From the NCBI RefSeq assembly GCF_013373065.1, contig NZ_JABXIN010000012.1:62001-126000 (forward strand): a DNA stretch of 64,000 bases, written 5' to 3'. This DNA is from Algoriphagus sp. (GTDB lineage Bacteria > Bacteroidota > Bacteroidia > Cytophagales > Cyclobacteriaceae). The notes under the pieces were generated by a model. That model worked only from the letters and a program-made list of their open reading frames with translations. It was not told the DNA's origin and searched no databases. The number at the start of each line of letters is the position of its first letter. Position 1 is the first letter of the stretch. Positions 27,339 through 31,942 of this stretch are shown piece after piece. Position numbers and translations under genes: made by a program.

Positions 27339-28331
27339 ATGAGCCGATTTTTATTTTTTGTTTGCCTTATTTTCATGGGGCTTGGGGGAAAACTACTCGC
27401 CCAAGACAGGCAGATTATTCCTGATACAGTCTTGATCAATGGGGACACACTTCTTATGCTTGGAGATTCTTTGTTGATTGAAGAGCCCGTGAAGGAAATC
27501 TTCTGGAAAACGGGAGGCAATTACAACCTGAATATTCAGCAAGTTACCCTAAGCAACTGGGCTGCTGGTGGGGCATCTTCCTTTGCCCTCAACTCAGGAG
27601 TTTCCCTTTTTGCTAATTACAAGAAAGATAAAAAGGTTTGGGATACGCAGCTTACCATCAATCTTGGTTTCAACCGCCAATCTGATCGGCAATATCAGAC
27701 TCGGAAAACCAATGATAACTTCGTATTTGTCAGTAATTATGGCCGGGAGCTTTCTGAAGTCTATTACCTCTCCACACAAATTGATGCTCGAACGCAACTG
27801 TTGGAAGGTTTTAAATACTCCAGGCCTTCCGGAAGCGAAACAGACGTACGGACCAAAATTTCTGACTTGCTTTCACCAGGATATGTACAGTCTTCAACGG
27901 GTCTGAATTATCGAAAGACCTATGAAAAGGGAGGAAAGTTATCCGTCATTTTATCTCCATTTACAGGACGATTCACCATTGTCATGAATGACTCCTTAAG
28001 TAATGCTGGAGCCTTTGGGGTGACCCCGGGAGAAAATGTCAGAGCGGAAGCAGGAATGTCCCTCAACACATCCATCAATGGCTTTCAGTTGATGGAAAAT
28101 GTGACATGGAAAGCAGAGCTGAACCTTTTTTCCAATTATGAACGCTTCGGAAATATGGTTGTGAACTTAAATTCAATCATCCGATTGAAAGTAAACAAAT
28201 ATATTTCTACCCGGATTGAGACTGCTATTATTTATGACGAAGAGGTTTTTATCAAACAGGACAACGGTACTTCCAAACAGGCCGTGCAGCTCCAAAACCT
28301 GATTAACTTTGGGATATCCCTGGATTTTTAG
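27339..28331 (+). CDS. DUF3078 domain outer-membrane-like protein
   Basis: 330 residues from the ATG at 27339; a longer in-frame start at 27249 would overlap the LysM gene and spoil the signal peptide MSRFLFFVCLIFMGLGGKLLAQ. The mature part begins with a short Thr/Leu-rich stretch, then FWKTGGNYNLNIQQVTLSNWAAGGASSF, the signature of DUF3078, and continues in alternating strands to a terminal phenylalanine, as in outer-membrane barrels. The function is unknown. It probably shares a transcript with the lytic transglycosylase. Its stop overlaps that of the convergent dnaX. Confidence 0.85.
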   Translation: MSRFLFFVCLIFMGLGGKLLAQDRQIIPDTVLINGDTLLMLGDSLLIEEPVKEIFWKTGGNYNLNIQQVTLSNWAAGGASSFALNSGVSLFANYKKDKKVWDTQLTINLGFNRQSDRQYQTRKTNDNFVFVSNYGRELSEVYYLSTQIDARTQLLEGFKYSRPSGSETDVRTKISDLLSPGYVQSSTGLNYRKTYEKGGKLSVILSPFTGRFTIVMNDSLSNAGAFGVTPGENVRAEAGMSLNTSINGFQLMENVTWKAELNLFSNYERFGNMVVNLNSIIRLKVNKYISTRIETAIIYDEEVFIKQDNGTSKQAVQLQNLINFGISLDF

Positions 28332-28921
28332 AAGTCGGTATCCAACTCAAATTTCTTAGCCAACTCCATCAAAGCAGGATGCTTTTTTAGAAGAAAATTC
28401 ATCTTGTCTCGATCGGTATAAAGTTTCTGATGGGACTCATGAACTTCCTCTTTGACCTCTAATTGAACTGAAAAAGAGTTAGCTCCGGTCAATTTTCTAA
28501 CCAAACCAATCAATTCCGGTTTCATCTTTTCAGCGATCTCTTCTTGGACCGTACCAATCACCTCAATCACCAAATCCCCATTTTGGACTTTAATTGGTTG
28601 TTGAAGAATGGCAAGCTCCAAGTTTTTCCCCTGACTTTTAAAATGAGCAAGAATATCAGGGAGATGCTTTTCTACCAATTCTCGAGAAAGATGCTGAACA
28701 GAAGTGGAAGGAATTAGCTCAACCGGGGATTCTTTTTCTTTAGCTGCCTCAGAAACTTCTTGTTTAGGCGTTGAAACCTCCTGCTTGCGGAATTTTTTGG
28801 CTTGTGCCAAATTGGTTGGAACCGAGATAGTCCTTTGGACAGGGGTTACCTTGGTGTGTATTTCAGTCGAAGCTTGCTGGTTGGAAGTCTCAGAACCAGG
28901 ACTTGACTCAGCTTTTAGACT
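28328..28921 (-). CDS. dnaX: tau-specific C-terminal part of DnaX (-1 frame continuation)
   Basis: This frame is open from the A10 tract (28921-28930) to 28328 without a stop, 197 codons, and lies in the -1 frame relative to the upstream dnaX reading frame. It has no convincing start of its own: the first candidate is a TTG at 28810 inside a Gln/Thr-rich linker. The visible content is a flexible linker (about 70 residues), then a folded domain with LVEKHLPDILAHFKSQGKNLELAIL, a strand-rich segment, and DRDKMNFLLKKHPALMELAKKF. This layout fits the C-terminal tail by which tau contacts the replicase. I infer that slippage at A10 fuses it to the first 380 residues, giving a 577-residue tau. Confidence 0.75.
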   Translation of the reverse strand, partial: SLKAESSPGSETSNQQASTEIHTKVTPVQRTISVPTNLAQAKKFRKQEVSTPKQEVSEAAKEKESPVELIPSTSVQHLSRELVEKHLPDILAHFKSQGKNLELAILQQPIKVQNGDLVIEVIGTVQEEIAEKMKPELIGLVRKLTGANSFSVQLEVKEEVHESHQKLYTDRDKMNFLLKKHPALMELAKKFELDTDF

Positions 28922-28930
28922 TTTTTTTTT
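28870..28930 (-). promoter_or_regulatory. Slippery A10 tract and downstream stem-loop in dnaX
   Basis: The coding strand has ten consecutive A (28930-28921), followed at once in frame 0 by GTC TAA. Six bases past the tract a stem-loop can form: outer AAGCT/AGCTT (28914-28910 with 28874-28870) and inner CTGGTT/AACCAG (28899-28894 with 28882-28877) around an 11-base loop. This resembles the -1 frameshift signal of E. coli dnaX and the A-tract slippage site of Thermus dnaX. Confidence 0.7.
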
Positions 28931-30060
28931 GAATCCTCCACCGACAAGGCAGCCAATTGCAATGCGGCTGGAATTTTTGCCATTTTCATCAACGCCAATT
29001 CCACATGCAAGCGTTGATTTTTGCTGGCTTTATAATGGATATCACACTGATTCGCCAAATTAAGTGCTGAAAGTAAAAACGATTGGCTCGTCTGTCTCGC
29101 TTGCTCTAGGTAACGGACTTTCACTTCATCAGAAACTTCCATCAAGTCAACCGTCTGCTCATCCTGAGATACCAGCAAATCCCTGAAATGCTCGGAAAGA
29201 CCAACGATGAAATTGTGACCATCAAATCCATTCCGTTGGATTTCATCAAAAATCAACAAACTCTTTGAAATATCTCCTTCGAGCAGAGCATCAACTACCT
29301 TAAAATAGTAGTCATAATCCAAAATATGAAGGTTGGAAATGGTCTCTTGGTAGGTGACCTTTTTGCCGGCAGAGTAAGTGACAATTAAATCGAAAATAGA
29401 GAGAGCATCCCGAAGGGCTCCATCAGCTTTTGCCGCAATCAAGCGAAGGGCCTCTTCTTCATAATCTACCTGCTCTTGCTTGGCGATGTATTGCAAGTGT
29501 TCGGAAATATGCTTGACTTGGATTCGATTGAAATCAAAAATCTGACATCTGGAAAGAATAGTCGGAAGAATTTTATGCTTTTCAGTCGTGGCCAAAATAA
29601 AAATCGCATACTTCGGCGGCTCCTCTAGTGTCTTCAAAAAGGCATTGAAGGCACTGGCTGAAAGCATGTGAACCTCATCAATGATGTATACTTTGTATTG
29701 GCCTTTTTGAGGAGCATAACGCACCTGTTCTACGAGATTCCGAATATCATCTACGGAATTGTTAGAGGCCGCATCTAGCTCATAAATATTGAAAGAAGCG
29801 TTATTTTGGAAGGAAACGCAAGACTCACAAGAGCCACAAGCCTCCTGATCTTCTCCGCGATTTTCACAGTTGATGGTTTTTGCCAAAATACGTGCGCAGG
29901 TGGTTTTCCCTACACCACGAGGGCCACAAAATAAAAATGCTTGTGCTAAATGGTTGTTTTTGATTGCATTCTGTAGTGTCGTTGTAATATGCTGCTGCCC
30001 AACTACACTTTTGAAATTATCAGGTCTGTATTTACGTGCCGAAACGACAAAATTTTCCAT
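28915..30060 (-). CDS. dnaX: DNA polymerase III subunit gamma (frame-0 product of dnaX)
   Basis: 381 residues in frame 0. AAA+ clamp-loader ATPase with Walker A GPRGVGKT near residue 45, the zinc-binding Cys cluster CENRGEDQEACGSCESC, Walker B IIDEVHML, the LSRCQIF sensor segment, and domain III to about residue 365. It ends SVEDSKKKV just after the A10 tract, which is a gamma-like length. The clamp loader opens and places the beta sliding clamp. The tau-type tail continues in the -1 frame (28921 down to 28328), so both products are likely made. It starts with ATG (MENFVVSARKYRPDNF), is divergent from tmRNA, and converges on the DUF3078 gene. Confidence 0.95.
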   Translation of the reverse strand: MENFVVSARKYRPDNFKSVVGQQHITTTLQNAIKNNHLAQAFLFCGPRGVGKTTCARILAKTINCENRGEDQEACGSCESCVSFQNNASFNIYELDAASNNSVDDIRNLVEQVRYAPQKGQYKVYIIDEVHMLSASAFNAFLKTLEEPPKYAIFILATTEKHKILPTILSRCQIFDFNRIQVKHISEHLQYIAKQEQVDYEEEALRLIAAKADGALRDALSIFDLIVTYSAGKKVTYQETISNLHILDYDYYFKVVDALLEGDISKSLLIFDEIQRNGFDGHNFIVGLSEHFRDLLVSQDEQTVDLMEVSDEVKVRYLEQARQTSQSFLLSALNLANQCDIHYKASKNQRLHVELALMKMAKIPAALQLAALSVEDSKKKV

Positions 30061-30195
30061 CGCTGCAAGATATAAAAATCTCTTTGATTGGAATGAAAGA
30101 TTGGAAGATTTGAAAATTGAAAAATTTCAAAAAGGGCGGGAAGGTTTCTAGTTTTCGTTCTTTTTATCGGCCACAAACATCCTCTTATTTTTTCC

Positions 30196-30225
30196 TTGAA
30201 GGGAACCAAATTAGATTTACATTTG
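30196..30225 (+). promoter_or_regulatory. Bacteroidota promoter of tmRNA
   Basis: TTG (30196-30198), exactly 19 bases, then TACATTTG (30218-30225), a full match to TTG-N19-TAnnTTTG, 15 bases before the tmRNA 5' end. Confidence 0.85.
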
Positions 30226-30240
30226 TCTTCCCATTGAATT

Positions 30241-30641
30241 GGGGCTGACCGGTTTTGACAGTAAGTGTAAAGATCGGGCTCGCATGCAGGCTGGAGTATG
30301 TACGGCCTTGAAAGATTCATACGAACGATAAATGGCGAAACTTCTTACGCCATGGCTGCATAATCTAACCTCAAGAGGATAGATCGCTTAAAGGGTTGAG
30401 TCCGCAAGGCGGATTCCCCAGCCACATCTCACCGTCTGTTGTCTGATCCGGGCGGATTCGAGGTGTCGACTTGATCGGGCTGCGGCTTGTGATGCGATTA
30501 TGCGAGCTTAAGTTTTAATCGCTAAGCCAGACTCAGGTGTGTCACCCAGCATAGTCTGGTCGAAAACCCAATCGGTGACTAAGCATGTAGACGGTACGGT
30601 GTTTCCTTATCTGGACGCGAGTTCGAATCTCGCCAGCTCCA
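30241..30641 (+). ncRNA. ssrA: Transfer-messenger RNA (tmRNA)
   Basis: One-piece tmRNA of about 400 bases. The 5' GGGGCTG pairs with 3' CAGCTCC (30634-30640), followed by discriminator A. The T arm GCGAGTTCGAATCTCGC (30617-30633) is intact. The tag reading frame runs GGC GAA ACT TCT TAC GCC ATG GCT GCA TAA at 30334-30363, giving the tag (A)GETSYAMAA, close to the Cytophaga-type tag. It rescues stalled ribosomes and marks products for proteolysis; smpB is not in the window. CCA is not encoded. It has a consensus promoter and a terminator. Confidence 0.96.
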
Positions 30642-30645
30642 CACC

Positions 30646-30678
30646 AAATCCCTCCATTTTAGTTGGGGGGATTTTTTT
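30646..30678 (+). terminator. Intrinsic terminator of tmRNA
   Basis: AAATCCCTCCA pairs with TTGGGGGGATTT (one T-G) followed by T7. It abuts the 3' end of the convergent permease gene. Confidence 0.85.
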
Positions 30679-31942
30679 ATGCCTCAGATTTCTTCCCAAA
30701 TTCCTTAGGGTATTTGGCAGAATAGGCCATGATAAAACTTGGAATCGTAGCAATCACAACCCATACGAAGAAGCCGGGATAGCCCAACCATTCCTGCATA
30801 TATCCTGAGATCATTCCCGGAACCATCATTCCCAAGGCCATAAAACCTGTAGCCAAGGCATAATGGGCTGTTTTATATAATCCTTCAGCCAGGAAAATCA
30901 AAAACACCATATATGCCGCAAAACCAAACCCATAACCCAACTGCTCAATCAGTACAACTGTCGCTGGAAAAAGAATACTTTCAGGCTGATACCAAGAAAG
31001 TAAGACATAACCCAAATTGGGTGCGTTGATGGCGAAAACCATGGGAATCATCCATTTTCCTAGCCCATGTCTCGAAATCAGGATTCCGCCGACAATCCCT
31101 CCTACGAGCAAAGCAATTACCCCTAGAGTCCCATACAAATATCCTACTTCGGTTACCGTCAGTCCCAAGCCTCCTTTTGCCCGATCATCCAAAAAAAACG
31201 GTGAGGCCATTTTAACCAATTGCGATTCCCCAAGCCGGTAGAGGAGAACAAAAGCTAGTGATAAACCAATGTTTTTCTTGGTAAAAAAACTAGAAAATAC
31301 TTTCCCAAAACTAGGTTGATCTTCTTTAGAAACACGCTCCTCGATTACTTTCGGAGTAGCAAGGAAGTTAATCCCAGTCAAAAGCAACATCAAACCGGCC
31401 ACCCCAATCATGGTCCAAGACCAAGCGGTCGAGGGATCGCCGAATTTTTCTTCCAAAAAGCCTGCTCCAATGACAATCAAACCCTGACCTGTAATCATCC
31501 CAACCCGATAAAAAGTACTCCGCATCCCCACGAAGAAACTTTGCTGGTCAGGTTTTAAAGCGATCAAATAAAGCCCATCGGAGGCAATATCATTAGTTGC
31601 AGAAGCAAAAGCTCCCATCCAGAAAAAGGCAAGCGTGATCAGAAAAAATTGATTCAAACCTGTCGTCAAGCCTACGCCCAAAAAGACTAGAGAAAGGATC
31701 AATTGCATTGTTAAAAACCATTGCTTCTTATTACCAAACAACTCCAGGATGGGACTCCAAATAGGTTTGATGACCCAAGGCAAATACAAAAAGGAAGTGT
31801 ATAAACCGATATCGGAATTAGATACGCCGAGGCTTTTGTACATGATCACCGAAACCGTAATGATAATAACATAGGGCAGAGACTCGGTCAAATACAAAGA
31901 AGGCACCCAAATCCAAGGGTTTTTCGATTGATGTTGGGTCAT
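30677..31942 (-). CDS. AmpG-like MFS permease (probable muropeptide or amino-sugar importer)
   Basis: 421 residues with about twelve membrane segments. It has LPYVIIITVSVIMYKSLG and the SFLYLPWVIKPIWSPILE segment between helices 2 and 3, which is characteristic of AmpG/acetyl-CoA-type MFS proteins that import anhydro-muropeptides. It is the last gene of a four-gene run with an amidase, a GHL10 glycosidase and an acetyltransferase; its start overlaps the acetyltransferase stop by 4 bases. The context supports uptake of cell-wall fragments. The exact substrate is inferred, not shown. Confidence 0.8.
   Translation of the reverse strand: MTQHQSKNPWIWVPSLYLTESLPYVIIITVSVIMYKSLGVSNSDIGLYTSFLYLPWVIKPIWSPILELFGNKKQWFLTMQLILSLVFLGVGLTTGLNQFFLITLAFFWMGAFASATNDIASDGLYLIALKPDQQSFFVGMRSTFYRVGMITGQGLIVIGAGFLEEKFGDPSTAWSWTMIGVAGLMLLLTGINFLATPKVIEERVSKEDQPSFGKVFSSFFTKKNIGLSLAFVLLYRLGESQLVKMASPFFLDDRAKGGLGLTVTEVGYLYGTLGVIALLVGGIVGGILISRHGLGKWMIPMVFAINAPNLGYVLLSWYQPESILFPATVVLIEQLGYGFGFAAYMVFLIFLAEGLYKTAHYALATGFMALGMMVPGMISGYMQEWLGYPGFFVWVVIATIPSFIMAYSAKYPKEFGKKSEA

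Follow-up and report, generated by a model that had tools for sequence, protein, structure and literature searches.

A conserved A10 tract in dnaX of Algoriphagus and other Bacteroidia as a putative slippage joint for the gamma and tau subunits

The dnaX gene of Algoriphagus sp. contains ten consecutive A residues that are very probably a programmed recoding joint, at which RNA polymerase slippage would give two clamp-loader subunits from a single gene. The gene is located in a window of 64,000 nucleotides, by which we mean the whole stretch of DNA analyzed. In the proposed mechanism, RNA polymerase would slip on the T10 template and produce transcripts with mixed numbers of A. Transcripts with A10, together with those that continue in the third frame, would terminate translation within a few codons and yield gamma (381 aa), the unslipped ones at the frame-0 stop codon TAA at 28,915–28,917. 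If a transcript carried one additional A, or any other number of A that gives the same frame, the downstream ORF would come in frame and yield tau (577 aa), the C-terminal part of which would bind the alpha subunit of the polymerase. We infer that RNA polymerase, and not the ribosome, makes the slip, and that both products would accumulate in some ratio.

The gene is encoded on the minus strand and starts with an ATG at position 30,060. The frame-0 ORF (28,915–30,060, minus strand) encodes a gamma-like product with the AAA+ ATPase, the lid and domain III. The joint reads TCA AAA AAA AAA GTC TAA in frame 0, and the A10 tract, which was delimited from the sequence and the survey of relatives, occupies 28,921–28,930 of the minus strand (T10 on the plus strand). 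The frame-0 TAA ends 6 nt past the tract, and a TGA in the +1 frame (28,908–28,910, minus strand) ends 13 nt past it and closes the third frame. The -1-frame ORF (28,328–28,924, minus strand) covers 197 codons beyond the tract plus the stop codon at 28,328–28,330; it encodes a linker and the tau C-terminal part, and its translation runs from SLKAESS to ELDTDF. The original prediction had described a frame 0 that ends two codons past the ten A, at 381 residues, and a -1 frame that is open for 197 codons from the tract, and both statements agree with the sequence and its translation. It had also given product masses of 42 and 63 kDa, which are slightly lower than the computed values of 43.1 kDa for the predicted gamma and 65.1 kDa for the predicted tau.

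Profile searches with the frame-0 ORF matched NF011531 of NCBIfam over residues 1–366 (E 1.6e-220) and TIGR02397 (E 1.9e-132), as well as the Pfam families PF13177, PF22608 and PF12169, and a search of the PDB returned E. coli-type gamma/tau chains at E values of about 1e-70. These matches indicate that the ORF contains the N-terminal ATPase domains of DnaX. By this protein, the nearest relatives that bear a name are Algoriphagus species. Upstream of the gene and divergent from it lies a tmRNA gene (30,241–30,642, plus strand) with the tag GETSYAMAA, the only RNA family recovered in an Rfam scan of positions 28,000–31,000. In 27 of 80 named relative loci, a tmRNA gene likewise lies on the opposite strand and precedes dnaX.

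Runs of A10 are few in the source genome, a draft assembly of 38 contigs and 3.65 Mb, where five were counted on both strands together. Apart from the one in dnaX, two are located within ORFs (L259, at about 1,427–1,436, and L260, at about 1,447–1,456), and the remaining two lie between ORFs (L261 and L262) when ORFs of at least 80 aa are considered. Reading the letters by eye, we take the gene that holds the L259 run to be methyltransferase-like, with a glycosyltransferase-like gene nearby, and place the L260 run at the start of a gatB-like gene. Both are possible slippage or phase-variation sites.

The product of the -1 ORF (P0001) matched positions 426–613 of the 614 positions of NF011531 (PRK14971) with an E value of 4.6e-9; its score of 35.6 bits is far lower than the whole-protein cutoff of 685, as it must be for a fragment. 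The match indicates that the C-terminal part of tau is encoded in the -1 frame. No Pfam family matched P0001 at the cutoff, and no second tau C-terminus was found in the source genome up to an E value of 1. In the AlphaFold2 model, residues 78–198 (28,331–28,693, minus strand) form a folded domain in the order helix-helix-strand-strand-helix-strand followed by two helices, with block-mean pLDDT values of 92–98 for residues 81–160. The folded C-terminal domain that the original prediction had placed in the -1 frame, behind a linker, agrees with this confident model and with the match to the C-terminus of PRK14971.

Among the best 50 alignments of the modelled core with VIA-align, the highest Z score was obtained for chain 4tps_B of the SirA-DnaA domain I complex (Z 8.5), followed by 8a3v_C, a chain of the DnaB-DciA complex (Z 7.7), the N-terminal domain of DnaA (2e0g, Z 7.3) and DciA (7ykm, Z 6.7). 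Many ribosomal KH-type chains also aligned, at Z scores of about 6, and all of these values are middling. A Foldseek search of the tau C-terminal model against the PDB gave no matches at E values of 0.001 or lower, and a profile search for a solved structure of the C-terminal part gave six matches up to an E value of 5, the best at 0.036 and none of them DnaX. Domain V of E. coli tau did not appear among the best 50 VIA-align alignments; we take it to be of the same KH-like kind as the modelled fold. The C-terminus of E. coli tau is described as contacting the polymerase and tying the cores together (PMC3290774).

The coding sequence of the -1 ORF shows signs of purifying selection. Compared with its counterpart in a relative (pair L001-L141), dN was 0.13 and dS 1.54 over 191 codons, as calculated with a script of the Nei-Gojobori type. 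The dS values were saturated in 8 of 11 pairs of tau C-terminal parts (dN 0.09–0.48); individual estimates were 0.026 (dN) and 0.101 (dS) for the pair L120/L123, and 0.229 and 2.74 for L173/L175. An alignment of 48 C-terminal parts gave the majority consensus KLYT..DKF.YL.EK.PAL.EL..RFGLETDF at the end of the protein, with one invariant Leu. A reading in which gamma alone is made, with the -1 ORF left over and decaying, draws on the split itself and on nothing further. It is contradicted by the low dN relative to dS in the L001-L141 pair, by the conserved end, by the confidently predicted fold and by the open -1 ORF in 101 split loci, and we assign it virtually no probability.

The survey of dnaX in relatives was based on 58 genomes including that of the window (26 regions), 80 named loci and a draw of 296 genomes from the class (60 regions). 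A total of 224 loci had a match in these three sets, of which 214 remained after weak non-DnaX matches and identical loci had been removed; two further loci were too short (L154 and L228) and one had no single open frame (L138), leaving 211 evaluable loci with the window's own included. An additional draw from the phylum comprised 118 genomes and 40 regions. The tract was defined as the longest run of A between -30 and +220 of gamma residue 360, and the tau frame as the frame that is open 130–430 nt past this residue; where two frames were open, in the loci L118, L121 and L095, frame 0 was assigned.

A run of A9–A11 was present at the joint in 186 of the 211 loci and was exactly A10 in 169 of them, in a sample that is weighted towards the genus of the window and its near relatives and in which a few distant runs may be unrelated. 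Tau was located in the -1 frame in 101 loci and in the +1 frame in three, and the other 107 had it in frame 0, as part of a single ORF; this ratio of split to single genes is not a population estimate, the 60 regions of the class draw having been chosen by hand from listed rows without a locus, with all 22 split-looking ones included. Of the -1-frame loci, 99 of 101 retained the tract, as did all three +1-frame loci and 84 of the 107 single-ORF loci. The other 23 single-ORF loci had either A7 or A8 (15 loci) or no run of A7 at all (8 loci), so that only a minority of relatives combine an unbroken frame with the lack of a homopolymer, which the original prediction had considered incompatible with a recoding joint. 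The runs begin at every codon position, in split and in single-ORF genes alike. Outside the class, A9 or more was found in 25 of 39 readable loci and was absent in 14; the loci with a tract are 18 members of family f96, both split and single, and seven others (L312, L315, L321, L323, L324, L325 and L327). One locus of the phylum draw, L278 of family f72, has tau in the +1 frame past an A10.

The two split loci without a tract were L110, from an Arcicella MAG, and L185, from the same class as the window. In L185, tau is in the -1 frame, there is no run of A7 or longer, and one TAA lies inside the match, so that the split is either an assembly error or the result of another mechanism. In ten Pontibacter loci (L088, L091, L095, L097, L101, L103, L104, L107, L109 and L112), dnaX consists of a single ORF in which a G follows an A7, and the other frames are closed 5 and 10 nt beyond the A7. 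This A7-G looks like a shortened joint.

Homopolymers are prone to sequencing and assembly errors, and the split could in principle be such an error in a gene that is really a single ORF. The original prediction had named an indel of this kind as its main alternative, and the draft status of the 38-contig assembly is in its favour. However, the same joint carries A9–A11 in nearly all loci with tau in the -1 frame, across several genera and families, and the split recurs in congeneric assemblies that consist of a single contig (G009, G021 and G033, corresponding to L018, L023 and L015). Stop codons are also retained just past the tract in both non-tau frames. The conservation refutes this explanation at the level of the family, and for the gene in the window its probability is close to nil.

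Mononucleotide runs are also known sites of phase variation, and DNA replication slippage might switch the gene between cells with A11, which make tau, and cells with A10, which do not. The one-base difference in the tract between L153 and its relatives speaks for such a switch. However, exactly A10 was found in 169 of the 186 tract-bearing loci and the genome has no other tau C-terminus. The off state should moreover be harmful, given that the E. coli tau C-terminus is reported to tie the cores together (PMC3290774). A phase-variable switch is therefore extremely unlikely.

A further indication of the mechanism came from the stop codons that follow the tract. Both non-tau frames were closed within 24 nt past the tract in 169 of the 186 tract-bearing loci, compared with a mean of 23 and a maximum of 37 in 5,000 draws from matched control positions 24–117 nt farther downstream in the same genes. 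After dereplication at 85% nucleotide identity, both frames were closed in 144 of 158 loci (null mean 20.3, maximum 35). The result was reproduced with loci of the phylum draw that do not overlap the first set, 35 of 41 of them closed in both frames (null mean 4.1, maximum 11); they comprise 16 loci of the same class and 25 from outside it, after 6 duplicates, 2 short loci (including L288) and 15 without A9 or more had been left out. Two stop codons four bases apart and within 16 nt of the tract were observed in 78 of 186 loci, as compared to 44 of 3,162 control windows. In the single-ORF genes with a tract, the two other frames were closed within 24 nt in 69/84 and 83/84 of the loci, versus 34% and 42% at the control positions.

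Closure of both non-tau frames is what a mixed population of transcripts would select for, or ribosomes that slide into all frames. The slippage genes of the Thermus type are characterized by an A/T run of 9 or more, by near stops in both non-tau frames and by mRNA in which the number of A varies; the gene in the window has A10, its stops end 6 and 13 nt past the tract, and its mRNA would be mixed in this way. With the third frame, too, closed directly past the tract, transcriptional slippage is favoured over -1 ribosomal frameshifting.

The slip could instead be ribosomal, by a -1 frameshift on A_AAA_AAA or by sliding on the A run, perhaps with the help of an upstream Shine-Dalgarno-like stretch, in which case tau would be translated from a homogeneous A10 mRNA. 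The heptamer A_AAA_AAA is in register in all 186 loci, as follows from the length of the tract. Slipping on it is possible because a single tRNA-Lys (UUU) was seen among the 30 tRNA loci scanned, a list that is probably incomplete, since only part of the candidates were scored and no Ile tRNA was seen. The direction required is -1 in 101 of the 104 split genes, for which the same-direction criterion, as presented in the GeneTack paper (PMC3711429), would favour ribosomal frameshifting. Sliding of ribosomes on A runs has been reported and could also reach all frames, as described in PMC4363877.

Shine-Dalgarno-like motifs are frequent near the tract, and in the window a GGAGG is located 4 nt before it. 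Relative to four control offsets, they were far more common here: the 20 nt preceding the tract contained 4-mers of this type in 45 of 99 split genes (controls 0–8) and in 34 of 84 single-ORF genes (controls 2–7), and 5-mers in 29/99 (controls 0) and 6/84 (controls 0–1), respectively. With the amino acids and codon usage held fixed, the single-ORF genes retained an excess of 4-mers (31 of 74 dereplicated genes versus 18.9 expected, a number reached in 0 of 2,000 draws), and their 5-mers were as expected (6 versus 5.4). The same control removed the excess in the split genes, with 23 of 81 for the 5-mers versus 19.1 expected (309 of 2,000 draws) and 36 versus 32.0 for the 4-mers (345 of 2,000 draws). 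Near the tract, GAG was preferred over GAA in the split genes (69/105 versus 228/501 farther upstream) and, to a slight degree, in the single-ORF genes (22/56 versus 126/377).

Several observations argue against a ribosomal slip. The +1 frame was closed within 24 nt in 97 of the 99 split genes with a tract versus 36% at the control positions; a -1 frameshift visits only frames 0 and -1 and does not need this closure, although sliding would. The tract is maintained near 10 A in all codon phases, though 7 A in one phase would be sufficient to form the heptamer, and three genes require a shift to +1. Only 20 of the 186 loci have the strong E. coli heptamer A_AAA_AAG in register, and the window, with the joint TCA AAA AAA AAA GTC, is not one of them. 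Finally, the relatives show no excess of structure downstream of the tract.

This last result also bears on the stem-loop in the original prediction. A stretch of 73 nt folds at -13.6 kcal/mol, with a predicted stem-loop at 28,865–28,908 (minus strand) near the one originally named; the inner stem CTGGTT/AACCAG does form, whereas the outer stem differs from the AAGCT/AGCTT that had been described. The structure is no more stable than expected from shuffled sequences (z -0.65; 52 of 200 shuffles were as stable or more so). In the relatives, the mean z for the 60 nt past the tract was -0.53 in split genes, -0.47 in single-ORF genes and -0.48 in a control stretch, and the shares with z below -1.5 were 19%, 21% and 16%, respectively. 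On both grounds, the hairpin is not supported as a stimulator of frameshifting.

The Arcicella locus L110 has tau in the -1 frame and GGC GGG GGA AAG TAG about 57–69 nt past gamma residue 360, in the place of A10. Here, G_GGA_AAG is in register directly before the frame-0 stop, and by the general heptamer pattern it constitutes a -1 ribosomal site. This lineage has possibly switched from slippage to ribosomal frameshifting, and the occurrence of such a site at this joint is a point in favour of the ribosomal route, which may be used in L110. For the gene in the window, we consider this route unlikely, and slippage by RNA polymerase is the preferred explanation. The proposal of gamma and tau as the two products is supported, as are the position of the joint and the direction of the slip, which is needed for the long form.

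The frame in which tau is encoded has changed repeatedly around the tract. An unrooted FastTree phylogeny was built from 209 gamma proteins, excluding L139 and L140, which were too short. At least 21 changes of the tau frame are required among the 184 tract-bearing loci on this tree, a count that could be inflated by single assembly errors in draft genomes. In 500 shuffles of the labels, the mean was 62.7 changes and the minimum 50, and 14 changes remained on the tree when nodes with support below 95 were collapsed. By this analysis, the tau-frame state is inherited but labile. A one-base example is provided by L153 (A9, tau in -1), which is placed beside L148, L156 and L157 (A10, single ORF), all of one genus according to the taxon codes. 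Neighbouring loci of family f60 include L227 (A10, frame 0), L173 and L175 (A10, -1) and L177 (A11, +1).

It is likely that these observations reflect a frame-indifferent joint of about A10 in dnaX that is kept throughout most of the class Bacteroidia, provided the sampling is representative, and also in certain groups elsewhere in the phylum. Slipped transcripts would reach all three frames and the wrong ones would be closed at once, so that the tau frame would drift freely between 0, -1 and +1, with at least 14–21 changes, while the tract is kept. The single-ORF genes with A10 would then also be recoded to give gamma. This reading contradicts the view, expressed in a 2012 review, that most other bacteria lack signatures of dnaX frameshifting and may not make gamma (PMC3290774).

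Genes of this layout have been described previously. The GeneTack study of 2013 reported two-ORF dnaX genes in 12 genera, 17 genes in all and nine of them with 10 A; tau requires recoding in these genes, and transcriptional realignment was proposed as the mechanism (PMC3711429). The gene in the window is of this published type: it has two adjacent ORFs that differ by -1 at the DNA level and a poly-A joint, the gamma ORF terminates just past the poly-A, and tau requires the -1 shift, as in the genes of that paper (PMC3711429). Its supplement lists which species carry the nine A10 genes, and these may include near relatives. Closure of the third frame and single-ORF genes that share the tract, both covered by the present survey, are left untreated in the GeneTack text on dnaX (PMC3711429). 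In the literature searched, which mostly excluded subscription journals, we found no report that A10 is conserved across the class, that the third frame is closed, or that the tau frame turns over while the tract persists.

In dnaX of Thermus thermophilus, transcriptional slippage occurs at an A9 with stops in the other frames just past it, according to PMC1088944 and PMC5009743. The gene in the window resembles it in the homopolymer and in the near stops, but full tau is described for Thermus as the frame-0 product and gamma as the slipped product, with slippage established experimentally, whereas here the unslipped transcript would yield gamma and the slipped one tau, as predicted from the sequence. 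Such a reversal of the gamma and tau roles was noted in a 2016 review (PMC5009743). The Thermus layout with tau in frame 0 is not seen in the window, but it is present in the 84 single-ORF loci with A9–A11. The tracts also differ in length, A10 here as compared to A9 in Thermus. A homopolymer is likewise used in mxiE, which differs from dnaX both as a gene and in its function, and its short product presumably does not serve alongside the long one as a subunit of one complex. In Shigella flexneri, slippage at this homopolymer is reported to be required for the long mxiE product (PMC1088944). With dnaX of E. coli, the gene in the window shares its identity, the two products and the -1 relation of the frames. 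The E. coli gene is described as having A_AAA_AAG, an upstream Shine-Dalgarno-like element and a hairpin, with the shift giving the short form (PMC3711429, PMC5009743). In the window, by contrast, A_AAA_AAG is out of register, the hairpin is unsupported, and the shift gives the long form.

The part of these results worth following is how the tau frame has evolved around the persistent tract. The natural changes of frame constitute a ready test bed for distinguishing slippage from ribosomal frameshifting. There is also a consequence for annotation, in that tools that record the first ORF will report a DnaX of 381 aa that lacks the C-terminal part of tau. If the proposed reading is true, the single-ORF and split layouts would represent one mechanism in different frames, and stuttering of RNA polymerase would supply tau and gamma together in much of a major bacterial phylum, which would bear on the question of whether gamma is made, or needed, beyond a few model bacteria.
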